NCBI GenBank assembly: GCA_950295325.1
Contig: OX485803.1
Span: 76,029,554 to 76,093,553 of the forward strand
From: Polytrichum commune
Lineage: Eukaryota; Streptophyta; Polytrichopsida; Polytrichales; Polytrichaceae
Length of the DNA: 64,000 nt
Reading direction: 5' to 3'
Every line of letters begins with the position of its first letter. The stretch's first letter is position 1. Below are positions 7,612 through 50,240 of this stretch, piece after piece. The notes under the pieces are model-generated. The model saw only the letters and a list, made by a program, of their open reading frames with translations. It made no database searches and had not been told where the DNA came from. Made by a program: the position numbers and the translations under genes.

Positions 7612-8023
7612 GACACCTTCCCAACAAGAAAGATTTACAAGTCCTAACCCTAAAACCACACAAAATACACTCCCCTCAATAACAAATCGCCACACATGCC
7701 CTACAATCTCAAACGATAATTCAACAGCTTCGAAAAAGCTTGCAGCTCTGGCCCTTTCAACTCTGGTTTCGGGTGATCAGCTACTGGAGTGCTCCGGTTT
7801 CAGGATAACAAGCTCACACAAAACTATGGCCAACTGGCAGGCCACGCAGGCTTGCCACCCACCGTGGTGGCCCCACCCAATACCCTTCCCGCGCGCATAC
7901 AGGGGGCCCTTGCAGGGCGCCGACTGGGCGGCCCTCCCGGCACGGCCCTCCCTCCAAATTAAGTGCCCGCGTCAATGCCCGTTGCTGGGACCCTTTGCCG
8001 TGAGCCGACTGCAGATGCCCTAA

Positions 8024-17300: not shown

Positions 17301-20097
17301 ACAAGTAGAACAATGAACTAAGAAACTGTGTTGTCAAGATGATTCAGCTCTTTCAGCTTTACATATGAGGTATGGTGGACAGACATCTAGGGTTAGCTGA
17401 TGACGTTCCCTGATAAACTTGGAACAATGTAACATGCCTACATGTTTCATTCGAAGTGGCTCCCATTTAGCTTTCTTACCTCTCTGTAATTCACCCTACT
17501 ACATTCCATGAACTTTAGATTGTAACTCATATACGTAATTGTGACAATTTCTGAGTTTTTCTACATTTATATCTACAATCATTTGTAATCGATTTGTAAG
17601 GCACTGGTTCCTGTAGAATCTGGATGGCAGATTAATTTAGAACTGCATACCAAATTTACAGATTGTGGGCTGATGTGTGCAGATGTTGATGGCAAAGTTC
17701 CACTTATAGAGGCCCTCATAGCACGGGACATCGCCACTGTGAAGCTCCTTTGGGAGAATGGAGCCACCCTGAATAATGCTGACCGAGGCCGATTTTTAGG
17801 GCAAGCCGTGATGGATGGCAATACAGGTCTCATTGACGATCTTTTACACTATGGTGCCGATGTAAATGAAGGTGACACTGAAGGCCTCACTCCGCTCCAC
17901 GTTGCTGTGATGAATGGCCATTTGGACATGGTGAGGTTTCTCTTGTCCCGAGGTGCTGTTATCAACAAATTTGATGACCGCATCCCATCTCCTCTCCAGC
18001 TTGCGGACCTCAACAAGGAGCACCCAGAAATGGCAGCGCTGTTAAAATCCCAAGCAGTGTTGGACTCATCAAGTCACGGCCAGTGTCTTGTTAATAACAC
18101 CTCAGATGCAGAAGCCAAATTGGGTGATGATCAAAGTCCTGCTTCATTGCCGAGTTGTCATCCAGGACATGATTTGGACAGTGGTGCCAGTGGTTCCAGG
18201 GAACCATCAATGTTGAATTTGTTGAATAAGGGGAACTCAGTTGAGGTTGATCAGGTGCCAACTCTACCTTCAACCAACTCCCTTGCAATTCTTTGCTACA
18301 ATCAACAAATGTTTTCAATCAAAGGGTGTTGTCTCAAATAAACTAAGTTTTTGGGCGTTTCCTTTTTCTACTACTTCAGGGTTTTGGTCTTGTCTCTCCT
18401 GGTTTCCTTGTGTTGCCATTGAGGTCTTATCGCACATGCTACAATAAATATTTCAGTCTTCCAATTACCTGCGGAATCAGTAGCAGAAACTTAGATCATA
18501 CGGATTGGCCACCATTTGGCTATTGCCACATGTGCGAATTAATTTCTAATTCATTTAGTTTCCGATTGCTTCCTTTTGAATGCTTTGTATTGAGTATCTA
18601 GGTCTTAAATCTTTGGAATAACCATCTCTCTTGACTCTTATATTACAGTGTACCTACTTTTACCTGTAAGTGTTGTTTGGTCAACAATACTTACAAGGAT
18701 ATGTTTCGTTTATCCTGGGAGACATGATTGTCAAGCATGACTGTTGAAGAAGGTAAAGAATAAGGTATTATTGTGGATTGAAATTTAAGGAGGCATGCTG
18801 GAACAAATGGAAATCTAACATGAGTAGTTGATTGTGTCTCCTTTTTGTTCTCTGTCCAAGGCTGCATCACCTATCCGTCCCAAAAGAACTGCTCTAAGTC
18901 GTAACTCTCACCAACATCCTGCAATCAACACATTGATGCAAAAGCATTCAACCAAGGGACGCCTTGCAGGCTCATTGGCACATAAAGCCATGAGCCAGCT
19001 AAACATCAATCCTTGGGGCCGTCGGCGGAGCGACAAAGACGATGAATCTATTCCAGCTCCTTCTCCACCTGCCATTGATGATTATGTGAGGAGGCTTCCT
19101 TTACGTGTAATTATTCATCCATACCATCCACAGAGCAAGGAAGCTTGTTCCCCAACTGTATTGGCAAAGCTTGTGAATTTGCCCAGGTCTTTGGAGGAAT
19201 TACTTGAATTGGCCGGTATGTAATTAGCCTGCTTCCTCAAACACTTGCATTGCAATCGACTTTTCAAGATTTCAAGTAATTTTGTATATAATAAAGAAAG
19301 TTCATTACATGAGTGATGAAGTAAGTAGTCCAGGCATGATGGTGATATTGACACCTTGGTATCATGTCATTGCCTTCAATAGCCATGCTGTGGGTCAGAC
19401 GTTTGATAGTAAGAAGGGTGCTATCATGTGTCTATTATGTGGTTGTTTGTGTTACACATGGTTTCTTAGTAAACCCAATCTTAAAAATATAGAAGAATCT
19501 CTTGGAAGGTCTGACATTATGCTTGTTTTGTTATCTACTTATTGAGTTTGTTAAACTGCTGTCTGTTGCAGGCAAGAAATTTAACAACGATCCAACTAAG
19601 GTTCTGAGTACTCAGGGTGCAGAGATTGACGATGTTAGCTTAGTCCGAGAGTATGAGCATCTGTACATTATTAATGAGCATCAACTACGATCTGAACCCC
19701 AAGGTAAGTGCTTTCATTCAATTAAACACAACATTTTTATGTATAAAGATTGGCGATTGGCACTTGGGGATTCACACTTGTTTAGAGCTAGGAGAAATCA
19801 TATGATATTATGTATGCCTGCAGAGTGGCTTGGTGGCATTGTGAATCTTCAATGTGCCATGAGATCAAGATTATTAGCCAGTTCTATATGCAGACAGTAT
19901 GACATTGCTTTTTTTGTCAATGCATCTTGCTGACAGAATATTATGAGATGACTTAATAGTCTTCTTTGTTTCTTTGAGCAGGGTTTGCTGCGGGCGAGCT
20001 CATTGCCAATTTGCAAGCCGTAATAACAGTTTTGTCAAATAGCACAAGTGGCACTGCATCTCTACAACAGGCAGTGGAGCCTCGAGATGTTGCATAG
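11393..20097 (+). CDS. AKT1-like: AKT1-like Shaker potassium channel, 15 coding exons, 986 aa
   Basis: Exons: 11393-11601, 12495-12710, 12953-13111, 13283-13340, 13957-14274, 15064-15303, 15477-15575, 15921-15953, 16096-16281, 16533-16724, 17050-17125, 17683-18254, 18861-19215, 19572-19703, 19982-20097. All introns are GT-AG and the 2,961 nt end in TAG in frame. The product is a voltage-gated plasma-membrane K+ channel of the plant AKT (inward-rectifier) type. S1 lies at about residues 71-93 and S2 at 100-125; S4 carries RLWRLRR at 182-188. The pore helix and filter are [14 protein letters not shown] with TVGYGD at 271-276; S6 lies at about 285-313. The C-linker has ASRNQLP and [10 protein letters not shown], as in AKT1. 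The cyclic-nucleotide-binding-like domain (about 395-505) contains [16 protein letters not shown]. Ankyrin repeats span about 525-720, then a low-complexity linker, then a KHA domain (about 860-945). It is longer than the roughly 860 aa of Arabidopsis AKT1, mainly in the ankyrin-KHA linker and C-terminus. Exon 8 is only 33 nt. The first in-frame ATG is at 11,393. The AKT assignment is firm; AKT1 versus AKT2 is not separable here. Confidence 0.95.
11665..12182. repeat. Tandem duplication inside intron 1
   Basis: Two diverged units of about 255 bp (near 11,665-11,920 and 11,925-12,182). Shared phrases include TTTGGAGCTGTTAAAA, AAACTAAATACCTT and GGATGGNGACCCTTGCTT. They lie between exons 1 and 2 of the potassium channel and carry no open frame. 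Confidence 0.8.
14310..14825. repeat. Three ~162-bp tandem repeats inside intron 5
   Basis: Units start with CTTCGAA near 14,327, 14,490 and 14,652. Each contains a GTGACAAGGGTTTA-like phrase (14,401; 14,561; degenerate at 14,725) and a GTTGAGTGCTAACTCAAC-like inverted segment. The first unit begins just after the exon 5 donor, so the repeat lies wholly within the intron. Confidence 0.8.
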
Positions 20098-21284: not shown

Positions 21285-21635
21285 TCACCAGTTTCTTCCA
21301 CAATACAAACAAGGGATTTCTTTGCAGTAGTGAGCAGGATCAATCTTGCAAATTGGGCCAAATATTGGGGTCGTCGACAGTAGGCTTCGGTTGTGCAATC
21401 TGGAAACTGGGAATCCAGTTCCTTCGGATGAAACCCGAGTCCCTAATTCACAATCATGGTTTTCTGGATCAGGTTCTGGAGGCCAAAACAACAACCGAAA
21501 GAGCCTGTCCATGATGAATTGGCAGGTAGAGATGAACTCAATGATGCACCTCCTAGCACCGCCGGACCCAATCTGCATAATTTGTGATAGTATACGTACA
21601 GAATGAACAGGTGGTCGACCGATCGAGACGAACAT
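21285..21635 (-). CDS. Family A: small protein with C-terminal HxCx4CxxCG signature
   Basis: Frame of 116 aa from ATG 21,635; a shorter start at MQIGSGGARRC is possible. It ends with PAHYCKEIPCLYCGRNW, which matches the C-terminal signature shared with five other small ORFs downstream (B to F): H-x-C-x4-C-x2-C-G followed by a basic residue. Upstream of the signature, IFGPICKIDPAH parallels the F-P-x-Q-x-S...D-P-x-H pattern of B, C and F. No signal peptide or membrane segment is evident. I do not recognise the family; the clustered cysteines could bind a metal or form disulphides, which is speculation. Start choice is uncertain because the N-terminus does not resemble the MAS starts of B, C, D and F. 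Confidence 0.5.
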   Translation of the reverse strand: MFVSIGRPPVHSVRILSQIMQIGSGGARRCIIEFISTCQFIMDRLFRLLFWPPEPDPENHDCELGTRVSSEGTGFPVSRLHNRSLLSTTPIFGPICKIDPAHYCKEIPCLYCGRNW

Positions 21636-22500
21636 TTGAACAATCTTGGAGCTAGCTGATCCATCCTTTGCTTCTAAGAGACATTCTAATTACAGCGTCA
21701 TCTCTGAGCAGTTCTCTCAGAGAAATTGTAATGATGTCTCGTTGTAAAATTTGTCAAGCATTTAAAAGCTAATATGGAAAGGCTAGTTCTATACTAGATC
21801 GCAAAATTGTGGCAGTCGATATAAGTGATATATAAAATATGTATTTCCACTGATGATTGTCTGCAAATTTGGCTGGGGACGCAACATCCCAATTTGAAAT
21901 TGACTAACCAAGATTCTCCTCAGTATTTTTCACAATAGCCGCAATGAGCAGCATATTCCTCTCGATATACAAAAATGGACAACCCTACACGTACGTACTT
22001 CGCGCAGAATTACACATCTTGTCAATCGAGGGTTGAGCTGCACACACGATGACATGATTTGCTCTAATATTACAACAGAACTCCAGTCTATGCCGTTTGA
22101 CAAATAACGTAAGTTCAGTTGGCATATTATCTCCATGTCGAGCTCTTCATTTCTTCGAAGGAAGGAACTCAAAGGGAACTCAACACCCGACACTCAACTA
22201 ACTATCTCACTGGGATATTCCTTGGAGTAGTTAATATAACGGTGTTCTTAATTACCTCCAGAAGCAGCCGTGTGGAGTTTCAAGTTGCGGCTGAAATTGA
22301 ATTCCCTTAGTTTGTAGATATGGATGGTTGACCATTATACTTAGGATAAGATATTGATGTGGCGGCGGAGATACACGAGATGATAACTTATCGAAGCCCA
22401 CCAATTGTTGCTGTCGGTCCACATAAATTACTACTCCACAAGTTTCATTAGTGACTGGTTTTGTAGTTGTACAGTAACGTCTGGTGCATGAAATTCTTCG
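21636..22500. other. Intergenic between family A and the duplicated block
   Basis: No gene supported. A TATATA run near 21,830 could serve family A on the minus strand. Confidence 0.3.
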
Positions 22501-23162
22501 GCAACGCAACCGTTCAATAATTCTTCAATATTATGCACAGCAATGTACAAGAATTCCTGGCCAGAGGATTTTTTTAAATTTCCAGGAGGCTTCCGTGCAG
22601 GTGAGGTCAATCTTCATGAGGACCAAATTTTAAGCTCTGGTGCTGTAGGTATAATCGTCAGTACTCTGCATCCCCAAAGGATTCACAGAAACCCGGAAAG
22701 ACGTTCATTAGGATCCGGTAGCAGTTAGCTGCTGGGAACCCCCTGGCCTTTTCGCGCGGTCTGAGGTATTCCATTTGCATCTACAACGAATTATAGCTGT
22801 ACCTCCACAAGAATGGCGATTATATTCAAGAAATGGCATAATTTTACATGTGTAAGATTAACCCAATGATGTGACCGCTCACCGACTGGGAGGACCTCTA
22901 GTTATCTAACGACTACAGTATCACCTACAGGCGGCAAGCAATGACTCTAATTAAGCATATTCCAAAAGCCATTGACTAATCGAGTCTCCGCAAGCATAAT
23001 TTCCACCCTTCACCGATCGACACTTCGTCGATCGTGTGGGTGTTCCAAATGGCATGCCAAGTGAGTCAATATCCTAAGTGAACTCCTACGAAGCATCCTT
23101 ACGACAAATCGATAATATCCACGAGCTGCTGGTGTTAATTTTCTCAGGATATTCCTGTTTAT

Positions 23163-23184
23163 CCGATGCACACTTATGCATCGG
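23163..23184. repeat. Conserved small hairpin, copy 1
   Basis: CCGATGCA and TGCATCGG separated by 6 nt. The paralogous position in unit 2 keeps the arms but has a different loop. The core contains TGCAT. Confidence 0.7.
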
Positions 23185-24608
23185 GGAACGCTTGCCTAAC
23201 AGAAGAAATTGACACACTAGGCCAAGTAAATCATCCCACGTAATTTTATATTGCCCCGTGGTACAAATCAAGGTTCTGATTAATTAATTTGTGGTTGTAG
23301 GTGGAAGCTGTGGTCACCGGTGGCAGTCTATGACCCTCTTTTAATTTACCCGTTTTCTGTAGAGATCATGAGGTGTTGTAACAGCGTTCAGGGCGTGAAT
23401 CTTGAGAAAATGGTACTAACATCAGACAGGCTAACTGTACCGCCAGATCCGATCACATGTGGTAACTTAATATCTTCAAACTGAATTAACTGTCAATTGC
23501 TGAGCATAGTGGTTACATATTGCAGAAACATTCTCAATGGGGCACACATTTGGGCTAAGTAGCAACAAGCTTATGATATTTCTTGATTTCATAATTGAGA
23601 AACATTGGATGGCATGAGTCTGTGCTTTACGCAAGTGTCCAGACGGAGGGAAGTCCAAATATTCAAGAGTTGTTGATTCGCTCTTGGATTTTGGATGATG
23701 TTGGTCAGGCTTCGAATTGATTAATTTGTGACAATGGAACCTTGACATGCGCTCAACAAATTACAAAATCCGCAGACCACTCATGGTAATGGTTTCAAGA
23801 CGTTGACCACAGACAGGGGTAAATCACATAACGCTATATCAAAGAATTATTATATAATTGATGAAAGATTCTCTTCAACATAATAATCCATGCCCTTCAA
23901 CGTATAATGTGGAAGATGATGCTGGTTCGACTATCTAGGGGACCTGATGACTACAATTCTGATCAATTATTTTGACCCATTCACCAGGTTTAATTGGTCT
24001 ACTTCATCACATGTTAACCCGAATTCTTACACAACATCATCTACGTCACCGTAAGCATTATAGAACAAAGGATGTGATCTTCTACAATGATAAAACAAAA
24101 GAACTGATGAACCGGACGCATTCATAATGTACACACATATCACATCAGACACCGAGTCATACATACAAAATTATAATATTCATATCAAGGAGAGGAGATT
24201 ATGAGCAATTGCGTTGAGCCAAAGCTGCATCGAGCTCCAGCTGCGGCGTCTGTCGATGGATGATCGCTAGCTCTAACTCATAGTCTCCTCATAAGTACAC
24301 TCGGTTGTATATAATATTATTTACATGTGCTACTTATTCTCTTGAGCTGTACATTGCAGGATGTATATATACATGATCCCTCTTTATACATTTACCAGTG
24401 TCACGGAGGCTCAACTGAAGAAAATGCTGACATGATGTATCATGAAGCTGAACTTCAATTCTCCGGCATTTTAAAGATCATCACCGGCCTTGCATCACTG
24501 GCCGATTACCAGCATGGAATTGTACATAATTCATATATAGCTACAGCAAATCAACACATATGATCCTTACTATACAAACTTGGAGAAATTTCATGCGTTC
24601 GTAATGAA

Positions 24609-24962
24609 TCAAGCGACACGCTGCGAAGGCTGATCTGACTTCCTATTTCCACAGATATCACATGGGATTTGAAGACATTTATGAGGTGGGTCCAAGTAAG
24701 ACAACTGTGGGGGGAAGCAAGGTGCGTCTTCTGGAACTCCTCCGAACTTGGCCACAGGATTTGCAGGAGGGGCATCACCCAAGTTATACGTCACTTGAGT
24801 GAACGTGATCCAATGCTGGACCACACTTCTGGAACTTGTCACTGACTCTGATCTTTTGCCGCAGGTGGTGGTGGATGGGGCGATGCAGTATTGAGGAGTG
24901 CGGGTGCCATCTCCACGTGGACGAGCGACTGGAGACAATTCAAGCAACTGTAGTGAAGCCAT
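24609..24962 (-). CDS. Family B: small protein with C-terminal HxCx4CxxCG signature
   Basis: 117 aa from the ATG at 24,960-24,962 in the good context ACCATGG. The frame stays open upstream to 25,160, but in paralogue C the matching upstream sequence has a stop, so MASLQLLELSP is the supported start. A Ser/Thr-rich middle (TRTPQYCIAPSTTTCGKRSE) is followed by SVVQHWITFTQVTYNLGDAP and DAPCFPPQLSY, then the signature PHKCLQIPCDICGN and a hydrophilic tail. About 65 per cent of residues match C, and length differences to C are whole codons. A minus-strand TATA box lies at 25,231-25,240, 269 bp upstream of the start. No signal peptide is seen. Unknown function, probably a lineage-specific family. 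Confidence 0.65.
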   Translation of the reverse strand: MASLQLLELSPVARPRGDGTRTPQYCIAPSTTTCGKRSESVTSSRSVVQHWITFTQVTYNLGDAPPANPVAKFGGVPEDAPCFPPQLSYLDPPHKCLQIPCDICGNRKSDQPSQRVA

Positions 24963-25230
24963 GGTGGTCTCGTGGAGACCTGATAGTATCCTTCCTTGCA
25001 ACTGAAGAGAACGGCTGAAATTGGAAGCAGAAAAAACGGTAGGGATCGAAGTAGATATCAAGAGTGGGTGCTTCGGTTGCAGTGGGAAGAATCTGAAAGT
25101 GCAGATTCGATCAGAAATGCACGCACTTCTCTGTAAATCGTGGAGCTGAGTGGGATTCAAGGCACTATTTGGAGTTGAGACAGATGCATGCTTGAAAGTC
25201 TAGTTTGTGAGATATGGGATTCATGCAAGC

Positions 25231-25240
25231 TTATATATAC
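25231..25240 (-). promoter_or_regulatory. TATA box of family B
   Basis: GTATATATAA read on the minus strand, followed by GCTTGC. The same block (TATATATAAGCTTGC) precedes C, and TATATAAACTTGCTTGCC precedes E, so it looks like a retained core promoter. Confidence 0.6.
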
Positions 25241-25306
25241 CTCGAGCTAGACCAAAAAATGACTTCTGTGATGCAACTCTCAATTTGGTTTTCCTTATCC
25301 ACTAAT

Positions 25307-25745
25307 CCGACATTCCCCAGACTATGTTTGACATATATTTGATGTTCGACTAAATCACATGAGTGCTGTGCTGTAAGCAGCTAGTTATCGTGCCAGAAAT
25401 TCAATATCGCTTTGCATTTCGGCTGACATTATCTAGAAAATGTTTCGGATCCTACAGTTGACCAGCAAGGATGAGAAGGCGCTCGACGTAATATCTTTGA
25501 AGTTAATTGAAATTGAGGTGGACAAGAACTTCTGTAAGCGGTAATTTCTCAGTAATATCCAGCTAATCCACTATTCCGACATTCCCCAAACGATGTTTGA
25601 CATTTATTTCGACGAATTCACACGAGTTCTTGTGAGCAGCCAATAATGCCAGAAGGGTCATTATCAATTTGAAAATCGACTGAAGATATTGTCTGAAACT
25701 TCTTACTACAGTTGACCAGGAATGATGTTAAGGCGCCTTAACATC
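25307..25745. repeat. Tandem duplication upstream of gene B
   Basis: Two diverged units (about 25,307-25,490 and 25,565-25,740) share CCGACATTCCCCA, ATGTTTGACAT, GCCAGAA and ACAGTTGACCAG. The matching region above gene C (29,800-29,970) has only one unit. The second unit ends in the palindrome at 25,708-25,761. Confidence 0.8.
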
Positions 25746-25761
25746 ATTCCTGGTCAACTGT
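25708..25761. repeat. Perfect 54-bp palindrome
   Basis: The left arm begins ACAGTTGACCAGG and ends AAGGC; the right arm is its exact reverse complement with no spacer, the centre GGCGCC lying at 25,732-25,737. The left arm is part of the duplicated GTTGACCAG region upstream of gene B; the right arm is an inverted copy of the same 27 bases. Confidence 0.95.
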
Positions 25762-26439
25762 TTCGAAAACAGGTGGAGGCCAGGCCGACCTTTATTTGAA
25801 ATTCATCCCGCAAATTAGTCCTCGCAGGGTCAAATTGGTGAAACTGAAAGATTAGTGATGATTTTTCTTCTCCTTTTGTGAGTAGTTTGCACAACTATAT
25901 CCAATTAAATTGTTATTTTGTGAAACGTGTTTTATTTAGTTCACCTTGTAAGTCTGGCGGAATCCAGATAATTATATAGCACCAGAATACCTCACTAAGG
26001 TGTACTGCACGAATTTTCCAGGTGCTGGAGATATCTATAGTGACATCCGTCGCTTGGAGTTCTACTTCGGGGCCGATTAACTCTTGTCTGTGCAGCATTT
26101 ATTGTGTCGACTTTCTTCCCACTTCATGCAGTCATACAGGGATAACAAGAAGACTGATGTCTTTAATTTGATGTCGACATTAACGTGTCATCAACAGTTT
26201 GGAGTCAGGCACTCGGATTCGTTAACGTGAGAAATCCTACACGTCGGACACAACCGAGGAATACACTGACTATTTTACAAGTAACTTGGAAGGATCATGT
26301 ATCCACAGAAGGCCTTACGTAGGATGCTGCGATGTACCAAATAAATTGTCTGATTCACAAGGGTGTATGAAGTAACGCAAAACTTCATTAGCATCACGTG
26401 TTGTAATTTTCAGTTGTCGGTGCAGAGATTCACTTCTGG

Positions 26440-26730
26440 GTCTCTCGAAGATTCAGTATACCGACTAAATAGGCCCCACAAATTTCTGGCCAAACTGCCA
26501 TCAACGACTCGAAGAATGTCTGACAGGTAATGACCACATGTTGTCCACTGGCCATTGGCCGTCATGCCGTCAACATATGATTAATATTTTAATATATTGA
26601 TATTTAGAGATTTTGTCAATTTTCAATGAGGGAGCTAGGACCAGCCTCCAGTTAATTGGATCTTCAGAATGGAATTAGCAAGCCTCTGATGCATCAATGC
26701 ACGCTGGCTCCTGGAGGAGTATGAGGGTTT
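26440..26730. repeat. Three-copy repeat with CCTCCAG/CTGGAGG arms, copy 1
   Basis: Copies lie at about 26,440-26,730, 30,180-30,450 and 31,420-31,665. Shared parts are TTCTGGCCAAA, CCACTGGCC and a foldback with CCTCCAG (26,645-26,651) and CTGGAGG (26,711-26,717). Inside the foldback TGATGCATCAATGCACGCT is common to copies 1 and 2 but missing from copy 3. Confidence 0.8.
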
Positions 26731-27932
26731 AGGTGGAAAGAATTCATTACGAATGTGCACTCACCACACCTTCACTGTCTTTTACAGTTTAATTTTCTCA
26801 ATCCAGGCTGCAAGCGCATGATTTTGTACCTTATCCTTGTTTCTGCAATTTCCACGAAGATGGTTTTACCACGGCGTCCAGATGAGTTCTTCAGCTCAAC
26901 AATCTCAAAAACGCCAGTCCGCCAAAATGATCGTCAGAAATGAGCAGAATAATCTCACCAGAATAATTGGCAATCTTCTCGTTTTGCCTTGCAGAAGAAT
27001 CTCACCAACATATCCACGAGTGATTCTTGCTCCAGATAGCTCAAGATATAAAAAGTGGCAACAGTGTGGTGATGATTTTGCAAGACAGGACATTTCACCA
27101 AATTAGCAAGTTAGGCCAGTGGGTTTAGTCCTAATGACTGCCAAAGCATACGCGTAGTCGATGCCGATGGCCACCTCCATGAGAGAAAATCAATCACAGT
27201 TGAAGGTGATCTGTTACTAATTAATATCAATTTTTTGTTGTATTGAGCATTAATAAACTCCAGAAGCAGATTAATGTGAGGTGCAATGCTGGATCCTTTA
27301 GTCAGAACCTCTTGGCGCGCAGAACCTCACTAGAACTAGAAGACCATTTTTGGGTTCGGAGACGACCCACTAAATCCCTTCACAAGCATTGAAGACTTAG
27401 GATTCGTTGAAGTGCATTGGCGACTCAATTGTTGAGATTAATCGTGATTAGAGCTCTCACATCAAGGCAAAAAGATTAAGCGCAGCAACGTACAGGAATT
27501 TCTATCCATTCCCAGGCAGTGGCTTTTTAATTTCCAGGAGGCTCCCGTGCAGGGGAGGTCAATCTTCACACGGAACTTATGGGAAGCCCTGGCGCCGTAG
27601 GTATAATCGACCCTGGCGACAGAACTTTGAATCCACACCCACCTGGGAGGATGTCTTATCCAATGACTACAATAGCACCTACAGTGGGACCTCCACCTGC
27701 TACAGATTTCTATGGCTCGTATTCCAAAAGGGATTGACCAATTGGAGCATTTCCACCCTAATTCACCGACACCAGTTCGTGAGGATGATCAACACCTTTT
27801 GATTTCCTACGAAACTGCGTGCTCACCATCCCTCATTACCTTCTGGTTAATTACTGTACACCACGAATTCATCAAATTAAATTGATATTCGTGAGCTGGT
27901 GAGTGATTTTCTTGATAAGATATTCCCGCGTA

Positions 27933-27960
27933 CCCGATGCACAACTATATATGCATCGGG
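27933..27960. repeat. Conserved small hairpin, copy 2
   Basis: CCCGATGCA and TGCATCGGG with a 10-nt loop. The arms match copy 1 at 23,163, while loop length and sequence differ. Confidence 0.7.
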
Positions 27961-29096
27961 GAATGCATTCATAACAAAAGCATCAAAACCCTGAAGCCAG
28001 AAAATCATCCCATGAATAATTTTCGGTTGGCAAGCAAGTTATAGAGAGAGTGTTGAAACAAATTGTGGTCGCTAGAAGTCTTTGACAATTTTTGACCCCA
28101 TTGTCTGTAGCATTTCGCGCTACAGTGATCAGTTACAGTTGTGACATTCATGGGAGGAATCTTAAGAGTATGGGTCGATGAGTCAGTTAGTACCGGACCT
28201 TCTGAGGACCTTCTCAAAGGCACATAATTCGGCCTTCAAACATGCGAATGACATTTGCTTGACGTTCATAATTGAAAAAACTTAAGATCATAGCATCCCT
28301 GTGGAACCTGTGTCGGTCCAATTCCAATTATTCAATTGTTGGTTCGTTTTTGGAAGATGACGCTGGTCAGGCTAATTCCAATTTTTCTGCGCGAATCGAA
28401 TTTTTTCCCCATGTGGTAATTTGCCCATATTATGTTGCTTGTGTGGTGTCCTCTCACCAGCAAACTGTGGGATAATGAACAGGTAATAAGGCATCCAGGA
28501 CTTAACTTTACTGACAGTAAATGCTATCCCTTCTCAACGTCACAGCAGACAATGGATTTTATAGTACAAAGAGTATAATGCTTGATATCTACTTCATGAG
28601 AAATTAATGAACCTGCCGCATATGCATAGTGCTGCATATATATCATGGTTAGAGATGAAATTAATATGTGTAATATGTCATGAAGTCAACAATGTCCGAG
28701 TCACATCAGACACCAAGTTATACCAAATTATGGCATTAATATAAATCAAGCCGAGGCGATGGACAATTGCAACCTGCAGCTCTAACTCGTAGTCTCCTAA
28801 TAAGCACACTCGGTTGTACAAAATACACTTAAATAATTTACATCTGTTACTAGCTTACATCTTCTCAACCTCCTAAAAATTCACCTGAGTTCTGTACATA
28901 CATATAAGAAAGCTCAACTGATGGAAATGCTGATGATGTATGAGCTCTGGCCTTCCATCACGGATTTAACTTTACAGGTACAATACCAGCATGCCAGAAC
29001 TGTACATTACTAGAATATAGCTACACCAATCAAATCATATAATATTTGTGATCCTTACTGTACAAACTTGGCGAAATTGCATGCGTTCGTACTAGA

Positions 29097-29462
29097 TCAA
29101 GCGGCACGCTGCGCAGGCTGATCGGGCATCCCCTTTCCACAGGTATCGCAGAACAACTTCCCTTTACACTGATGAGGTGCGTCCTTTTCACCATATGAGA
29201 ACTGTGGCGGAAAGCAAGGTGCGTCTTCTCCAACTTCTCTGAACTTGGCCACAGAATATGCAGGAGGGGCATCATCCAAGTTATACGCCACTTGAGTGAA
29301 TGTGATCCCATGCTGGACCACACTTCTGGAAGTTGACACTGAATCTGATCTTTTGAGACAGGTGGTGGTGGATGAGGCGATGCAGTTATGAGGGCCGCAG
29401 GTTCCATCTCCACGTCGAGCCACGACTGGAGGAGACATTTTGACCAACTGTAGTGAAGCCAT
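29097..29462 (-). CDS. Family C: small protein with C-terminal HxC...CxxCG signature
   Basis: 121 aa from ATG 29,460-29,462 (ACCATGG context), beginning MASLQLVKMSP. It is the paralogue of B in the second duplicated segment: SVVQHGITFTQVAYNLDDAP and EDAPCFPPQFSY are nearly identical to B. The signature is PHQCKGKLFCDTCGKG, with five instead of four residues between the first two cysteines. The tail DQPAQRAA parallels DQPSQRVA in B. A TATATATAAGC core promoter lies at 29,721-29,730. A longer second frame overlaps this gene on the same strand (29,030-29,809); I prefer this frame because its signature recurs in A, D, E and F. Function unknown. Confidence 0.65.
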   Translation of the reverse strand: MASLQLVKMSPPVVARRGDGTCGPHNCIASSTTTCLKRSDSVSTSRSVVQHGITFTQVAYNLDDAPPAYSVAKFREVGEDAPCFPPQFSYGEKDAPHQCKGKLFCDTCGKGMPDQPAQRAA

Positions 29463-29720
29463 GGTGGTCTAGTGTGGTGCTTGTCTCCTTCCTTGCAAAT
29501 GAAGAGAAGAGCTGAACTTGCAAGCAGAAACACTGGTAGGGAAATATTGTTCACGAGCGGATGAATTGGTGGCAGTGGGAAGAATCTGATGAAATTGAGG
29601 ATCCGATTCAAGTAAAGCTGATGAGAATGCGCTATCGTGAAGCTGAGTGGGATTAGAGGCTGTGTTAGATTTGAGATAGATGATTGAAAGTGCTTGTGAG
29701 ATATGGGATTGTCAGCAAGC

Positions 29721-29730
29721 TTATATATAC
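29721..29730 (-). promoter_or_regulatory. TATA box of family C
   Basis: GTATATATAA on the minus strand, followed by GCTTGC as upstream of B; 259 bp from the ATG. Confidence 0.6.
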
Positions 29731-30179
29731 TTCGAGATGGACGAAAACAATAGAGAAGGTCTGTAAGCGTGGAATTTTCAAATTTTTCCCTTATCCACAA
29801 TTCCGACATTCCAAATGATGTTTGACATTTATTTCATCTCTGAATTCAATTCTGTGGTCGGACAGCCAGTAAGTTATGACAGAAGGTTTATTATCGTTTC
29901 GAAATTTGGCTGAATTTATTCGGAAACTCAATCCTGCAGTTGACCACAATAGATGATCAGGCGCAGAGGTCAATTGTGTTCTTGATATGATATGAGTTCT
30001 TAATTGGGTTCTTGATATGAACACCCGCTTCAAAGTATTTGCATCTTACAACATTCTCCAATATCTGTGTGATTTTATCCATGTTCTTATATTTGTAACT
30101 GTCTCAAAATGCCGAAAAAGTCCCAAATTAACGAATATTACTTGAAGTCATATATCCACAGAAGGTCTTCCGTATCATA

Positions 30180-30450
30180 CCGATCCCATACCAACTAATA
30201 GCCCGCACAGAATTCTGGCCAAATAAACCACCCTCCACGAATGTCTGTCACAGATATTAATGATCCTATGTTTTCCACTGGCCATCCGTGGGTCTGATCC
30301 CATGTCCTCAAAACATAAAATAAAAAGATTCCTGAATTATTCTTGGGGGAGCTTGGACCTGCCTCCAGTTAATTGGATTTGAAGGATGGCACTAGCAAGC
30401 GTGTGATGCATCAATGCACGCTGCCTCCTGGAGGAGTACATAGTCACAAT
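30180..30450. repeat. Three-copy repeat, copy 2
   Basis: Arms CCTCCAG at 30,362-30,368 and CTGGAGG at 30,428-30,434. It contains GCGTGTGATGCATCAATGCACGC, itself nearly self-complementary, as seen at 30,399-30,421. Confidence 0.8.
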
Positions 30451-31419
30451 TACATTTGGTCACTAGACTTGACTTCTGATTGATCCATGACAACATGGAC
30501 AGTGTACATGAATCCAAATTTTCACGGTGTAGCTCAGTTTCAGTTAATTTCTGAGATTACTAATTTCAGGGTGGGTCATGTCGGGCCATATCCTTGATTG
30601 TCGAGCGTATCCTGGATTTAGCTTTGTCATTGGCCCTCGATCCAAGATTTGAAGCATAGAGCTCGGGTTAGAAAGAAAATTATGTAATGACGAATCCAAG
30701 ATTGCATACAGTAGTCTCTAAGTCCTAATTGCAGGGTCAAATTGGTGAGAATTAACGATGTTTAGTGAATAGTCTGTTGCGACTTGTTTGCACAACTTTA
30801 TTCATTGGATACTTTTGTGAAGTTATTGTTGTTTAGCTCACCTTGTACTTCTGGTGGACTTCAGAAAAAATTGAACCAGAGTACGCCACTAACTTGTTGC
30901 ACTGCAGGAAAGTTCCAGGTGCTGGAGATAGTGATAGTGGCGCTTGGAGTAATTCGGAAACTACGAACTCTTGCGTTTGCGGAATTTGTGTCTGATTTCC
31001 TCATACTTCAAGCAGTCATGTGAGGATACAAGAAGACTGAAATCTTCATCGCTGACACTAATTGTGCCGCAGTTAAAGGACCTAAAGTGTCCACAGGTTA
31101 GAGTGATCCATTCGGATTCGTTAAGGTGAGAAGTTCTGCAGGTCAAACACAGCCGAGGAATACATTGACTATTCCATCAGTAACCCGGAAGAGTCGTGTA
31201 TCCATAGACGGTATCACGTAAGATGGTGTGATGTACCATATAAATGTGTCTGTTTTGTCTGTTTCACGAATGTCTATTTTGTGCAAGCTGTCTCATCGAA
31301 GCCAAAACTGGTTTACAGAAGGATTCCAACTCAAGAAGCGCAACCCAGTCAAACCTTCGTTTGCATCACGTGTTGATATTTCCAGTGGTTGATGCACAGA
31401 TCCAATTGTGGGCCTCTTG

Positions 31420-31665
31420 GAGATTTATTACACCGACTAACAGTCGTCCCCAAAGTTCTTGCCAAACCACCGTCAACTTCCGCACCAGCAACAATGTCTG
31501 TCTTAGACAATGACCCCATGTCCACTGGCGGCCATGCCCATGCCCGTCACCTGAGATCTAAAGATATATACAGAAAGTTTCATGGCGGAGGTCCAACCTC
31601 CAGTTTGAATTATCAGCATGTAATTAGCAAGCTTGTGATGGTCCTGGAGGAGTACATGTTCACAA
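31420..31665. repeat. Three-copy repeat, copy 3
   Basis: Arms CCTCCAG at 31,597-31,603 and CTGGAGG at 31,644-31,650; the central TGATGCATCAATGCA block present in the other copies is lost. Confidence 0.75.
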
Positions 31666-32365
31666 AATCCGGGCATGACTACACTTGACACAAATCCACA
31701 ATAGCACAATGTGGCTCACATTGTAGCTAATTTTCGCTAATTTCACGTGCGGCGGTAATTTCAGGTGGATGTCAAAATTGAGCACAATAAAAAAATTCTT
31801 CTCGTTTGTTTTCCTACCTATACATTTTCAGAACAACTTCACCCACTATATCGAGTAATTCTTGATTCATGTGGCTCGAGATATCAAAAATTGTACCAAT
31901 TTGGTCAATAATTTTGCAAGAGTCCATGACATTTCACTAAGATATCCAATTAATCCAGTTTCTACACAATCCAATGAACATGGCAATGTTTATCCCCAAC
32001 TGCCAACGAATACTCGTAGTCAAAGACTAATCGAGGTCAATATTGCCCATGGCAAGCTGCCTGTGCTTCATGAGAGAAAACCATTGAAAGGTGAAGGAGG
32101 TCTGTTATTAATTAATACCATTTTTGTGTTGTATTGAGCGTGAAGTTACTGCAAGAACGGATTGCAGTGAGAGTGTTGTCTCTAAAATACATGAACCTTT
32201 ATAATAGTCAGCATTTTTTGGCGCGCAAAAAGGGCATTAGTACTGGAAGTAAAATTTTTGGGTTTGGAGACGAGCCACTTATTACCCTGTACACTTATCG
32301 ATGAATTAGTGTTAGAAGTGCGTTGAGAATTAATGGCGACCAGAGCTTCCGCATGATTCAAGTAC

Positions 32366-34301
32366 AGAATTGTTGGTAACCTGGCAGCTTTCTTTAGAGC
32401 GTAAACCACTGATATGCAGTTATCTTGCAATTCTTTCCAGAGTTGCATGTGATCACACTTCCAACCTCGCCATAATTTGACCCTTCTCTTATACAGACAC
32501 GGTATCAATTGGCCAGTCTGCACAGAATTGGGGATTGATACAACAACCAAAAAAACTCCACATTGACAATACACTACCTCTATCATGAAATCTTGCAATG
32601 CTCTTGAAGATCACCAAGTCAGGGATGTTGGACTCGAATAAGTTCTCAGTTGCAATTCCACTCAGTTATCCTGGAGCAACACGACGCTGATGCAGGTCGA
32701 CACTATATGTAAACCTCTTAAGGGTCTGCACACATATTACTCTCAGCAGACTGCATTCATGTCGAACCAAGTCACTAATTGAACGTGCGCAGAAACCTTG
32801 GGCTGCCAATGGCGGCCACGTACATCTGGAGATTTCCAGGCGATTTAAGAATACTAAATTTCATTCATACGCAGCTCTACAGCCCTCAGCTTCTCCGAAT
32901 GTTCTCAAGACATTTAGGGTTAGTAATTTCCACGAAAGTGACCTCCACAAGTAATGCAAATAATCCTGCGTGACCATAATTGCCTCTAAAGAAGCCCTAC
33001 CATTCTCATTTTTCCTAAACTGCCTCCTTCGAACTAACATAGAAGCTGGAAATCAACGTCTCTGCCACGTAATCCATACATCCACCGCCAACAGAAGCAA
33101 GTCTGCATGGTTCAACCCGCTCATTGGCGGGGGAAATGGATCATTTTGCTATTACGAGCCATGATCTTTTACTTTGATCCGTAAGAAGTAGATCCTTGTG
33201 TGAAGGCCGAAAAGTCGGCTGTGCATCGAGTATTACATAACAAACTTGATCAATGCAACTTACAGCTGCCACTCACTTAACCCATTATTTTCCAACTTAT
33301 CCACAACAACTTAATGACTGGCCAGAAAATGGGGAACTTCAAAATTTGACAAGTCAATGACCTCAATACGATGATTATTTGACAAGGACGACTACCTAGA
33401 ATTTTGCAGAGTTCTGCAAGAGGAAATTTATTACTTACCGTCTCACCTCTGAAGTGAACGGAACGATGTTTTGGACAGATAATAATTAGCTGTTCATGGT
33501 GGCTGCAATATTATAGTAGCTCTTATAAATACAAGATGGCTTCGTAAAAGGAGAAAGGCAAGTCTTACACGAGGAACTCCCCAACAAAACTGTTGTGATC
33601 CTCCAAAAAATGTTGCATTCACCAAAAAGCACCAAAATGCGGAAAGGACGTAATTTTCTTGAATTGTGGTTAGTAAAGATGACAACATAACGTATCCGAC
33701 AGGTCTCAACTTTTATAAAAATTGAGTGTAAAGAATACTTGTTTTAAATATCCATCACATATGTATCGAGTCAATCTACACAAAAATCAGAGCAGCATTA
33801 TAAGAAATTACTGGATCTATAATCTGCAGAGACTTTCATGCACTATCAGCTCTAGCTATCTTCTTGTCTGAGGCAATCTCTAGAACCACGTACTGGAGAA
33901 AGATATAAAAAAATGTAGGCCTCATGTACTGCAAAACAATTACATTTTTCAATATTTTTTCTCAAAAAGGTTTGCTGGACATAGTATAACACACTCAGAT
34001 CACTTCAACCTGAGTGTTGTGCCCTGATAACACCCATCATAAATATATGGCAAGTCTAGGAGAACATCATCACTCTCGAAAATCAGAACGCTATATATGA
34101 AATTAGAATCTATTTACATAAAGTGCTATATATTAGGCTATAAACTATGTATATAGGTATACAACGCTCGACGAAGCACATCAACCTTGAAGAAGAGTGC
34201 TTACAACTTATTTAGTAAAGGTTCAACCTTTCGATTAAATCATTCATGAAAGAATTTGCTGTGAATGGAGTCAATTGAGTGTCTGATCGATCAGCGTCAA
34301 T
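32366..34301. other. Intergenic, no gene seen
   Basis: AT-rich sequence with only short open frames that lack any family resemblance. Confidence 0.4.
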
Positions 34302-34622
34302 CTACCATCGTCGCCCACAAATGCTGCAGGGAATGTTCCTGCAGTCGTGAGATTTGTCCGGAAAGGAAACTTGACAAGGAAACGACTGATCAGACTGATC
34401 ATTATCATTCTTGTGGACATCTGCACGTGCCATTTCAACGTGATCGAAGATACTGATCAGGCTCTCGAAAATCGTTTCAAGCTGAGTACTTGGGGGATTC
34501 AGTGAATCATGTTGTTTTCTGGTTTCCACGAAATCTAGCCGGAAGCTGTCGTGACCCCTGTTGTGCAGATCCCTGACACTGGCGTTGATCAGTTGCGTCT
34601 GGAGAAGTGATCCGGACGCCAT
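34302..34622 (-). CDS. Family D: small protein with C-terminal HxCx4CxxCG signature
   Basis: 106 aa from the ATG at 34,620-34,622, MASGSLLQTQLINASV. The start matches MASELNLQTQLML of family F, which supports it over upstream in-frame ATGs (the open frame continues to 34,940). The middle is helical and acidic (STQLETIFESLISIFDHVE). The end SFPCQVSFPDKSHDC is followed by CRNIPCSICGRRW, the shared signature with basic and Trp residues at the end as in A. No signal peptide is visible. Function unknown. Confidence 0.6.
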   Translation of the reverse strand: MASGSLLQTQLINASVRDLHNRGHDSFRLDFVETRKQHDSLNPPSTQLETIFESLISIFDHVEMARADVHKNDNDQSDQSFPCQVSFPDKSHDCRNIPCSICGRRW

Positions 34623-34884
34623 GCTTGTTGAATGTGAGATTAACTGAGAAATTCTTTCCGGAATTGTACTGTGATGAGAATATGACGGAGTCAGAGCTCT
34701 AGAGCTGGAGAATGGAAAGAACGAAAAGAGTGAAGAATTGACTTTGAAGCTCAAGAATTGCAGGTGCGATAGGGCAGCACTACGTACAGATAGAGTCGAT
34801 GAACTTGAAATTGTGAGAGCAGATCCACCAATTTGTTCACATCTTATAACACCTGAATGTGTTAGCGTCGGGATCTGAAGTGAA

Positions 34885-35350
34885 CCAATAAATGGATAGA
34901 CTGGGCCCACCCGAATGTTGGAGGTTACGCAAAACCACATGGGAGAATTTCACCTTAACCAAACATGATATCAAAAATGTTGGAAAACGTTGCTGCTCGG
35001 AAATTAGTACCAGTCTATGACAGGAATTAGTAAAAAGCGATTAGTCGATGGATAGATAAGGCCCACCCAAATATTGGAGGTTATGCAAAACCACCACATC
35101 CTAGAATATCACCCCAATTGAACAATTCTATCAAGAATGTTAGAAGCAACTTAATGATCCTAGTCAATTATCCAGAATCGAATGCTGGAATTTCATCCTA
35201 ATTTGATTAACATTCTGTCGAAAATGTTAAGCTAAGTTGCTGTGATGATTGATTGGATCGTCAAGGCCCACCCGAATGTTGGAGATTATGCAAAACCACA
35301 TCCTGGGATTTGACCGAAATTTGATTAACATTCTGTCAGGAGTGTGATGA
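34885..35350. repeat. Tandem repeats upstream of gene D
   Basis: Three clear units contain GGCCCACCCGAATGTTGGAG-like sequence (about 34,905, 35,060 and 35,265), each followed by TATGCAAAACCAC. A partial fourth unit lies at about 35,165-35,240. Two units share TTTGATTAACATTCTGTC. Unit spacing is about 155-205 bp. The block lies 5' of gene D and might include part of its promoter. Confidence 0.8.
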
Positions 35351-36634
35351 TCATAATATAATTTGCTTCTCTGAGTTTATTGTTGACCAGTCTAGTATGA
35401 GAAGATACTACTGATGAATCTACTCCTCCATCGTTCGAAGCCTCGAAGCTGGGGACTTCGAAATGGCGGCTGACAGGCATCGCGCATGGAAAATTCGTGA
35501 TGTAGGAACGTCGGAGGTGAAGTCGCAGTGTTATAATTGTCTGCTTCTAGATTCCTGATCCGGAAGTTGACGGCGGCTGCGCTGATCACGACAAACTATT
35601 GTAATGGGGAAGATCAGTAGTCGGTATAGTCCATTACTCCGATCGGAGTCAGCGTCTGATGAATTTTGACCGACAAAGATGGCATTGCAAACAATCACAG
35701 TTCTAATTGGACACATTCATCGAGCACCCGAAAATTTCCACTTGGAGGATCAGCTTGGAAAATGCAACAACACAGTTTCTTTGTACAGGACAACGTCTGC
35801 AGTGACGGAATTTCACGCAACCTAAAGTCCATGTGGAGAAATTCCAGAGAATCACATAATTTCATTTACACCAGGTATTGTGTTGATGAAATGTGTCCCC
35901 CGACTACAGACACCAATGCAAGTGGCATTCATACGACTTGGCGATTCAATGGAGTGCCTTCTACTCTCTTAACTACTGCACGTTTTTGTTGATGATACGT
36001 AAATGACGATTGGCGGAGGTCGTGAAACTGATCATCATGTGATCCTTCTAGCCAGCATGACTAATTGACTGGAATGAAGTCTGCAGTCTACCCAGCAGAC
36101 AAATCAATTAGATAAGGTTGCTGGAAGTAGGAATCCAATCAACCACAGTTCGATAGCAATGCAGCCATGCATGAACTCCTGCAAGAAGCTTCTATTGTTG
36201 ATTAATTGGATTAATTATCAATATTTAGGTTACCCAATGTTTTTTTATGTTAATCTTTTTGGATGTCTTAATACGGAAGAAATCCTAAAGTTTGGTGCCC
36301 ATTGCCAACCTAAACCTCAATGAACTACTTAGATTACTGCACCCTTTTTATATGCGTCATGGCAATTCCTTCGTATAATTTATATCAGTCATCTCTCCCA
36401 AACGTAATGCATCACCCTCATTTCCTCTCGACCGGCGTATATGGGCTTGACAGGGATTAATTATCGGTAACCTAATGTATCGCATACTAACTCTTGTCCA
36501 TTGACACTCAAATCTCCCCTTCAGATTTACAAACGATATTTATAAGATACCTCACAGTAGATAGGAAACGATGGCGTATAAGTCGATGAAGATCATATAT
36601 TTCAATCCGTTATTATTTAGGGTCTCAATCCAAG
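35351..36634. other. Intergenic, no gene seen
   Basis: Only short open frames without family resemblance; no gene is supported. Confidence 0.35.
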
Positions 36635-36642
36635 TATATAAA
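36635..36642 (+). promoter_or_regulatory. TATA box of family E
   Basis: TATATAAA followed by CTTGCTTGCC, resembling the core promoter of B and C. The first ATG downstream is the family E start at 36,819. Confidence 0.55.
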
Positions 36643-36818
36643 CTTGCTTGCCAATCCCATAACTTACAAATCTTTTCCCCAATACCTCCAAGATCACCAC
36701 AACTTAGAAGTACTGCATCCACAGATTTCCATTTGTTTGATCCACTCCAAGGGGACTCCAAATTATTCATTAATTCCGAATTAATTCTCATCACATCCAG
36801 CTCACATCATTCTTTGAT

Positions 36819-37097
36819 ATGAGGATTCCATTTCAGTCATCGATCATGTTGATCTTGGCAGGAGAATGTGCAGATCGTGAAGAGATACCTGATTTACCCA
36901 CCCCTCATCGATATGAGGAGCTCATTCCGTGTTCAGTGTGTCTTCGAGGCAACAAGAGGCAACAAAAGGTTGCACATGGAGGAATCTACTTTTCATACTG
37001 CCGTGATTCACCTCACTACTGCAAAGACTCCCCTTGTTACAACTGTGGAAAGGGTGTACCAAATAGGCTAATTTCATTTCACCAATTTCGTACCTGA
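36819..37097 (+). CDS. Family E: small protein with C-terminal HxCx4CxxCG signature
   Basis: 92 aa. ATG 36,819 is the first ATG after the TATA-like box at 36,635. The protein has MRIPFQSSIMLILAGECA at its N-terminus, a mildly hydrophobic stretch that could be a weak signal sequence. It has an internal cysteine pair (IPCSVCLRGNK) and then SPHYCKDSPCYNCGKGVPN, the family signature. Thus it may carry two CxxC modules. It lies on the + strand while A to D are on the - strand. Function unknown. Confidence 0.55.
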   Translation: MRIPFQSSIMLILAGECADREEIPDLPTPHRYEELIPCSVCLRGNKRQQKVAHGGIYFSYCRDSPHYCKDSPCYNCGKGVPNRLISFHQFRT

Positions 37098-39019
37098 GTA
37101 AGGCTTAGAAGATTTATTAACTGTATTTTCACTAGTGTATTCTGTGCCAGATAGCCAGTCTTGTTGACGCTAACTGGGCAACATTGGGCTTCACTATCGT
37201 TGAGGTTGAACTAAACAATTTTGCTACAATTAACAGTCCATCCTGGAATATGTAGACTGTGCATTAATGCATGATGCATAATTTTCATACAATTAAAAAC
37301 CGAGGAAAGGTTGAATCAGATTGATGTACAGCTGATTCTTTAGTTGAGATTTCTCAGCATATCTAGAGATACCTGGGATTTATGTACGGAGAGAATTGAA
37401 TACTTAAGATTGAGTGGTTTTCATTTATAAGGAGATTGGATGTCATTGCAAGCTTAGCGCAGTAGCTGCAGGCTCCGCTTGAGCTTGATGACCGAACAGC
37501 TCTGATCCATCAACATTTAAAGTTGGCCATAGCTGGAAATATTTTGAAAATGAATATTTTGTAGGTGTGATTTTTCATGATTGAAGGAGTTCGCTTGATT
37601 GCACGTATGGCATACATACTCCGTGATTTTTGAAGTGGAAATGTCAGCTTTATATTGAAACCTATCAAGAATTCCACAATTTGAATGAATTACTGTTTCA
37701 CATATTCTGCAAAGGGACCATTTAATTTTAGTTTCATGTTCAAAGCAACTAATACAAGTCGGTACTATGCGATTTCCCTCACGTTTTTCTTGTTATATTT
37801 TGGTCTGATTGGGAGCTAACTTCATAAAGTCACAGGGTCGATCAATCAAATGAGATTCGTCAAATAGCCAAAATAATTATAGCGAGGTTTATAATTCTGT
37901 CTGAAGATTAATAACCATCAGTGATGTTGCTATGACAAACAGATGTTAGTAGAATTTTCGTGGTAGTCGATCAAGCCATTCCAATAAATGAAAAAAATAC
38001 TCAAGTTCATACTTCCGAAGTTCATAATCCCTTCATTCAAGATACACTAATATGCACTATTACCGTCGACCTGATCACATGCTCCTACTTCGGTGATAAA
38101 ACTTCCCCCAACATCAAAGCCATCAGAAGTCTAGCTCCGACATCTGGCCGGCTTCCGTATGTCATGACAAAAGGAACTTGGGCAATCCACCACCTAGGAA
38201 AAAATGCGGTAAAGTGGACATGAAAACCTGGTGAATGGGCTTGGGTTTGGCGAATTTCTCACTGTGTAATTATTGCGTGACACCAATGCATCACATGATG
38301 CATTGGCCACTCCCAAATTGGAATTTTTTGGTTCATGAAGCCCTGATTCTACCTATTGGTAGATGTCGACCTCGTGAGGCATGTTTTCGCGTTGACCTAA
38401 GTACTTCGATGTCTTCTGAAGCCTTTTTTCTGCTGTCGGTGAGGATACCGACTTATCGTCTCCAGAAATTCCATGTGCGCAAGCTCACCGCCTGCAACTT
38501 CCATACTTACAGGAATGTATATTGCAACAGATCATAACCACCACGTGATCAGCCGCTTTTACCTCCCGTGTAGGCAACGGCCAAATGTCATTCATAATAT
38601 TCCATTTGGATTCCATTTCGGGGGAATTTACTTTCCGGCCGGGAATTCGGAGCCTGATCCTATTCTCCAGGCGTTAATTCTCTCAGGACCTCTGGAGGAT
38701 GAAGTTCATCATCATCATGGTCCTTGCGTCACGTCCTAATCTTGGTTTCTTCTCTGATCGGCAGTGTAAGAAAGCATTATGCAGGATCAAATGGCACAAA
38801 TTATCTATTCCGACAGAATTTAGGACAGCATTTTAAACAGAATTGCCAACAGAATTTCCAAACTAATTAATTCCGACAGAATACTCATAATTCCGAATGT
38901 GGAGTTCCAATACTTTGAGTTTCCATAACCGCCACGATGATGATCGATGTTTATCCATCGGTGATGCATTTCCCTGGACCCCGACAAATGTTGGCACTCA
39001 AAGATGGAGGGCGGCCGGC
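37098..39019. other. Intergenic, with a TGCATCA palindrome
   Basis: No supported gene. At 38,283-38,306 CCAATGCATCA and TGATGCATTGG form a 24-bp inverted repeat with a 2-nt spacer. An open stretch at about 38,600-38,739 (NIPFGFHFGGIYFP) ends in HHHHGPCVTS, a doubtful echo of the family signature. Confidence 0.35.
38283..38306. repeat. 24-bp inverted repeat with TGCATCA core
   Basis: Arms of 11 bp that match perfectly, spacer CA. One of several TGCATCA-type inverted repeats in the 23-38 kb region. Confidence 0.8.
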
Positions 39020-39241
39020 TATAAGATGGGAATGTCGAAACCAAGCATTTGCACTCACTTTCATATTGACACTCTCTTTGAATTCACGAAACCTAGCTCC
39101 AAGCCTCTCCAGTTTCCTTCTTCTCATTCTTTCTCATCATCCAACAAGCCTAGCTAGACTTCAGTCACTAGACTTGAGTCCTCTTTCTCAAATTCCTACG
39201 AAACATTCTAGTATATTACAACAATCAATTCTTTAATCTCC

Positions 39242-39610
39242 ATGGCATCTGAGCTGAATCTCCAAACGCAGCTGATGCTCCACTCCAACACCAAGGAAAG
39301 GATAATCAGTGGTCCGCAACAATCCTGTAACGCAATCCTATCGCTGCATCCAATCTTCGAAGACGGATGCTTGGAGGAGAACATGATCACCACCACAACT
39401 CCGAAAATCTCTTTGGGAGATGGCGTTCACCGATGCAAGAAATTCCCATACCCAGTTTGCAACCAAGGGCGAGCTGCAATTCACAGAAGGAGATTCCGCA
39501 GCAGCACTATGATCATGTCTGCAGTAGAGCCCTTTCCTGGTCAAATTTCTGTAACTGACCCAGATCACTCCTGCAAAGGCTAACCTTGCGATGTTTATGG
39601 AAAAGACTAG
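39242..39610 (+). pseudogene. Family F: signature interrupted by a stop codon
   Basis: 113 codons from ATG 39,242 (MASELNLQTQLML) to TAA at 39,581-39,583. The frame reads DPDHSCKG, then the stop, then PCDVYGKD and a second stop at 39,608-39,610. The stop therefore falls inside the family signature, and the last cysteine of CxxCG is replaced by Tyr. An internal second copy of the motif, HRCKKFPYPVCNQG, is also degenerate (PC to PY, CG to CN). A TATA-like TATAAG is at 39,020-39,025. I call it a pseudogene; a shortened product without the motif is the alternative. Confidence 0.6.
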
Positions 39611-49990: not shown

Positions 49991-50039
49991 CTCTTGTCAA
50001 CAACTTGTGAATATTGTCAAGGATGATTGAAATTGGATG

Positions 50040-50240
50040 AAAAGTCACTTGGTAAGTGACAGTAATTGCAACACTGTAAATCTATAATCCCCAAAAAAAT
50101 TTACAAGGAATGACAATTAATATTGGGTCAACTTCTAGTGTTGGTGACACTATGCCGTCGTTTACAATTAACATTGAGCAAGACAATTAGAATTGGTGAC
50201 ACTAAAAATCATATTTAGTGTCGTACAATATTCAGTGTTG
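50040..50240. repeat. Dispersed repeat, copy 2
   Basis: Sibling of 41,682-41,875, located just after the LINE remnant. Confidence 0.75.

Follow-up and report, generated by a model that had tools for sequence, protein, structure and literature searches.

Six small open reading frames (ORFs; A to F) lie in a 64,000-nucleotide stretch of Polytrichum commune DNA (the window; GenBank assembly GCA_950295325.1, contig OX485803.1, here C1:76029554–76093553 of a 407.8-Mb genome in 64 contigs), and a preliminary description, made from the letters alone, held that all six end with H-x-C-x4-C-x2-C-G. What would such an ending be for, and is it confined to this locus? At least 33 further units of the motif were found at at least 11 other loci on contigs C1, C4 and C5, so the possibility that homologues are absent outside the locus was refuted. 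We read the ORFs as encoding intracellular, mostly disordered proteins that would offer their binding partners a minimal zinc knuckle of the HCCC type, and give this reading a probability of about one half; zinc binding, the intracellular site, the binding role and expression are what we infer.

All six ORFs were found in the window where the preliminary description had placed them, but the signature was exact in four only (A, B, D and E). A 35-letter DNA form of it, including a P preceding the second Cys, occurred in the window at those four places and in none of 100 dinucleotide shuffles. The loop of ORF C was five residues long and therefore outside the pattern as written. ORF F contained two motif copies, both damaged: in the first the second Cys was replaced by Tyr, and the second was interrupted by TAA, with its last Cys also replaced by Tyr, in agreement with the claim that F is broken. 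ORF E carried one good unit and a degenerate first copy (PHRYEELIPCSVCL). Four ORFs (B, C, D and F) did start with MAS, but the longer MAS-x-x-L, said to be shared by four, was present in three of the six (B, C and D), F starting with MASELNL. Nor did the ORFs “otherwise differ” throughout, since B and C had the same residue in 79 of 117 aligned codons. Past the motif there were three residues in A and D, 12 in B and C and 15 in E.

Comparison of 38 units (five from the window, 33 from the 11 other loci) gave a fuller motif, [D/E]-x2-H-x-C-x3-P-C-P-x-C-[G/H]. The H-x-C spacing was one residue in 37/38 units and the loop four residues in 35/38 (five, six or seven in the remainder), with P preceding the second Cys in 33/38 and following it in 26/38. 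As the units had been chosen by a His/Cys search, evidence was counted from unselected positions only. D or E stood at position −3 from the His in 29/37 units (one unit, at L012, was left out for a stop just upstream) and in 23/29 distinct units, and somewhere within −2 to −5 in all 29 distinct units; D was at −3 in 5/5 window units, against a D/E background of about 10% in five window ORFs. A profile built from 22 distinct outside units (those of the window and of loci L008, L011 and L012 left out) placed F, D, B and A, in that order, at the top of 2121 window ORFs, with E values from 1.1e-6 to 0.0022; the next window ORF had E 0.45, and among reversed decoys the best had 0.098. On the shuffles, this ranking and the enrichment of D/E at −3, a chance origin of the signature was rejected. 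The features of the cluster are as follows.

21285..21635, minus strand: ORF A, 116 amino acids (aa), ending ...IDPAHYCKEIPCLYCGRNW; outside-profile rank 4, E 0.0022.
21297..21332, minus strand: motif unit of A, exact signature; DNA resembles the E unit in inverted orientation (47 nt, 79%).
24609..24962, minus strand: ORF B, 117 aa; start context ACCACCATG; paralogue at C1:76432530–76432883, E 1.6e-38.
24648..24683, minus strand: motif unit of B, exact signature, HKCLQIPCDICG.
25233..25239, minus strand: TATA-box-like site preceding B, from a pattern search and the alignment of B, C and L008.
29097..29462, minus strand: ORF C, 121 aa; tandem duplicate of B.
29136..29174, minus strand: motif unit of C, HQCKGKLFCDTCG, loop of five; missed by the outside profile.
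34302..34622, minus strand: ORF D, 106 aa, ending ...SFPDKSHDCRNIPCSICGRRW; outside-profile E 1.7e-5.
34314..34349, minus strand: motif unit of D, exact signature.
36819..37097, plus strand: ORF E, 92 aa; one good and one degenerate unit (the latter about 36906–36944); missed by the outside profile.
37014..37049, plus strand: motif unit of E, exact signature, HYCKDSPCYNCG.
39242..39583, plus strand: ORF F, 113 aa, then TAA; outside-profile E 1.1e-6.
About 39428–39463 and about 39566–39601, plus strand: motif units of F, both damaged.

Twelve protein searches were run against the same genome, and 12 loci were fetched and read, of which 11 held units; unit and locus counts are lower bounds, the search scoring best candidates only. 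Outside the window the units were arranged singly, in pairs, in rows of three or four, in a series of 11 within a single ORF, and at the beginning of an AP2/ERF-like protein. L001 had three units and L002 four, of the form ISFPEPxHRCRTFPCPVCG; L006 and L009 had two each, both proteins beginning MDFCK; L003 and L007 had two, L010 three, and L004, L008 and L012 one (that of L012 in a 31-codon frame). L005 had 11 units in an 856-aa ORF and one in a nearby 57-codon frame. Near-identical blocks of ~140 aa, each with two units that end C-P-x-C-H, were seen at L005 (C4:33937000–33943500); they are a recent internal amplification. Twice on C4, a three- or four-unit gene lay some 6–8 kb ahead of an MDFCK gene (L001/L009 and L002/L006), so unlike members adjoin there, as they do in the window.

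The twelfth locus, L011 (C3:53887853), was a weak match with no unit in an open frame and was not counted as a member; further weak matches (C3:46048292, C1:64496853, C1:59204731, C3:29308559, C2:15638730 and C6:34998212) were likewise left out. No relatives of L002 were found in bacterial and archaeal contigs, by patterns which lie outside the motif and so have little bearing on it.

Since the most regular forms were the multi-unit proteins on C4 and relatives occurred elsewhere, the cluster in the window appears to be a side branch that diverged within a wider family, as judged by comparison rather than from a tree. ORF F, by its genome match to L006/L009 (E 7.2e-5), would be a decayed two-unit member related to them, and it looks dead. 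B and C were tandemly duplicated copies: between about 24.3 and 32.2 kb, the repeat pairs had steps mostly of 4.5–5.0 kb (the exception, 26618/30335, being 3.7 kb), and another pair, at 22.6 and 27.5 kb, had the same step toward A. In their DNA, the A and E units matched each other in inverted orientation. The cluster was formed by duplication in tandem, probably with inversion as well. Of the earlier view of a young, fast-evolving tandem family of small proteins, the tandem arrangement and the fast evolution stand (there was duplication, and dN/dS of B and C was about 1), but a young invention of the locus is not supported, its relatives occurring at 11 other places.

B, C and their paralogue L008, 0.38 Mb distant, were aligned as DNA without codon information. 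Indels divisible by three made up 12/12 pairwise counts in the ORF but 15/44 in the 300-column flanks (pairs share history and are not independent), and pairwise identity was 292/354, 279/351 and 290/354 in the ORF against 61–79% in the flanks. All three had a common TATA region and the ACCACCATG start. Within the motif, the columns of H, C, C, C and G were unchanged in 5/5 cases and the other ungapped columns in 0/7 (Fisher p 0.0013); a column was taken as a ligand column if each of the three rows had H/C or G there, and the five so chosen coincide with those named beforehand by the signature from B. In a simple drift simulation the probability of three stop-free copies was 0.022. TATA-like sites lay 267–280 bases ahead of the ATG in B, C and L008 and 184 ahead in E, the context of the E site resembling that of the other three. 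Three diverged copies of a 62-nt segment were seen at window 34893–35315, upstream of the MAS start of D (minus strand), and could possibly be its promoter region.

Several results weigh against the reading as binding proteins with a zinc knuckle. dN/dS was about 1 for B/C (1.00), B/L008 (1.14), C/L008 (1.12) and L001/L002 (1.25), with all ranges spanning 1, and six comparisons between L005 repeats gave pN/pS of 0.74–2.35; neither these four pairs nor the L005 repeats showed signs of purifying selection acting on the whole ORF. B and C differed by 26, 15 and 21 changes at codon positions 1, 2 and 3, without clear bias, an outcome the preliminary description had named as one that would count against the family. 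The outside profile did not find C and E at E 5, and whole ORF A matched only itself in the genome, so that outside the motif it has no relative and the part upstream is uncertain. The TATA-like pattern was absent within 900 bases of D and of F. In AlphaFold2 the ending of D had a mean pLDDT of 64.7 and ORF B one of 37.6, with no fold; Foldseek, run on the D ending only, gave no PDB match at E 10; and PDB profile matches were weak (best E 0.1) and covered the C-P-x-C-G end (rubredoxins, a few ribosomal and zinc-finger proteins).

The dN/dS of about 1 and the lack of clear codon-position bias in B/C, together with the broken F and the divergence of E and A, would fit a graveyard of mostly decaying, non-functional copies in the window, the working members being on C4. 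We consider this rather unlikely, as D is intact and as reading frame, start context, TATA region and ligands are all preserved across B, C and L008. Despite the lack of clear codon-position bias, the frame-keeping indels and the conservation of ligands alone speak for coding. Taking frame, identity and ligand conservation against dN/dS of about 1, we think it probable that the proteins are made, under loose constraint beyond the ligands. Among the five pairs tested, L006/L009 was the sole constrained one (dN/dS 0.58, bootstrap range 0.33–0.95).

Pfam-A was scanned with 12 family proteins (six from the window, six from other loci) and NCBIfam with six (two from the window). The six window ORFs had no Pfam match at the curated cut-off, in keeping with the remark that their ending belongs to no recognised family. 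The sole score above a Pfam cut-off was that of Lar_restr_allev on L002 (29.7 against 28.6), which was judged spurious, being a sum of short C-P-x-C-G stretches of which none passed alone. Below cut-off were Znf_XAF1_N and zf-C2HC_2 on E, and zf-Di19 and zf-C2H2 on L001 and L002. The zinc-ribbon, Lar, C2H2 and Di19 matches in Pfam and the Lar and Cys-rich matches in NCBIfam were rejected, as they lay around the C-P-x-C-G stretch. On these scans, no Pfam or NCBIfam family covers the scanned proteins convincingly.

Among known metal sites, the C-P-x-C-G knuckle of rubredoxins and zinc ribbons equals the second half of the motif; those proteins have two such knuckles far apart, whereas the partner here is an H-x-C four residues ahead. 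The COE/EBF finger, spaced H-x3-C-x2-C-x5-C, also has one His and three Cys with the His first, but it differs in spacing and is part of a large DNA-binding domain in an animal protein. That these transcription factors have an HCCC zinc finger is stated in PMC2394523. The CCHC zinc knuckle, C-x2-C-x4-H-x4-C according to PMC6333804, likewise has four Cys/His ligands within about 12–14 residues but in another order and spacing (here H-x-C-x4-C-x2-C), and zf-CCHC was not listed up to E 1 for the 12 proteins; the same paper describes a gene with many copies, some broken, as here. In the open-access papers searched, the letters and spacing of the motif were not found in the spellings tried (subscription papers and plant sequence databases lying outside this scope), and the HCCC papers listed among them concerned, by title and abstract, other systems.

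Could the units simply hold metal? A metallothionein-like store or chelator would sequester zinc, copper or cadmium, with multi-unit forms giving capacity, and the 11 units of one ORF would suit it, as would the 44 Cys and 56 His of that 856-aa protein, 33 of the 44 Cys being within units. In metallothioneins Cys-rich clusters form much of a short protein. The three family proteins counted do not fit this, with Cys at 12 of 243 residues (L001), 15 of 305 (L002) and 44 of 856 (L005). The single-unit members would offer one site per >100 residues, a poor capacity, the spacing between units is long, and one unit is joined to an AP2/ERF-like protein; we regard a metal store as improbable.

Still less probable in our view are secreted cysteine-rich peptides or their precursors, with units cut from the multi-unit forms. 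Near-identical repeated units with variable linkers do resemble multi-peptide precursors, and the evolution is fast. A simple hydropathy check (not a signal-peptide predictor), however, gave no convincing signal peptide in 14/15 proteins (below 2.0; E was borderline at 2.07), the Cys count of each unit, three, is odd and so suits disulphides poorly, and the conserved His and acidic residue suit a metal site better.

The preferred reading, a small zinc site acting as a binding tag, was drawn from three Cys and one His within 11–12 residues, the lack of a clear secretion signal in 14/15 proteins by simple hydropathy, predicted disorder outside the motif and the variable loops. Small zinc sites typically combine fixed knuckles with connecting loops that differ in length. 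The part shared by the dispersed family would be a segment of ~16 residues, in which a single zinc ion would most likely be bound by the His and three Cys; these ligands form two small knuckles, H-x-C and C-x2-C, and the acidic residue would support the His. Each protein, otherwise mostly disordered, would thereby carry a tiny folded tag and act as a binding module within the cell, probably in its nucleus; some proteins would carry single tags at their ends and multi-unit forms several in series. In the AlphaFold2 model of B, 13 residues scored 50–70, 12 of them being motif residues 95–106, which is weak evidence given a three-row alignment. Window members would now drift quickly, and at least F looks dead.

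L004 (C1:11121500–11124800) had a frame with MPEPRHICKSEPCPVCG, in which one unit near the start preceded an AP2/ERF-like region; the start of its protein is uncertain. L004 itself was not listed against Pfam AP2 even at E 10, and AtERF1 was a weak PDB match (E 0.3). Three of the genome relatives listed for this region were fetched (L013, L014 and L015) and matched Pfam AP2 with E 0.0016, 3.1e-7 and 4.9e-9, respectively, L015 alone passing the curated cut-off. L004 resembles AP2/ERF proteins in this way; the 11 other family proteins scanned had no AP2 match. A relative of the AP2-like part with two stops was seen at C3:22231438.

More tentatively, the units may constitute an unnamed plant module, perhaps among the smallest self-standing HCCC zinc knuckles, that spread as a mobile tag to the ends of tandem small proteins, into arrays of up to 11 in one ORF and to the beginning of an AP2/ERF-like factor; as duplicable metal-dependent adaptors, the small proteins would compete with partners of the tagged factor or bridge them. 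If it binds zinc, the motif would count as an autonomous metal site of very short length, whose spacing is covered by no Pfam model scanned and which at least one plant uses in modular fashion. Otherwise unlike proteins would then have a common handle for tests, and the family would illustrate the generation of adaptor proteins by tandem duplication around a tag that stays fixed.

Elsewhere in the window, a Plant_tran/DDE transposase and an adjoining ORF with a NAM-associated domain were present at 3737–4987 and 6307–7695, an arrangement we take to resemble a PIF/Harbinger element, and a 38-bp tandem repeat of about four to five units lay near the transposase (5766–5955). Pieces of an ion-channel gene (Ion_trans) with ankyrin repeats, presumably an AKT-type potassium channel, were seen at 13957–18341. 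The channel, ankyrin and transposase ORFs are in keeping with plant DNA. A pair of direct repeats (82% and 77%) lay outside the cluster at 41679–41876 and 50037–50227, about 8.36 kb apart.

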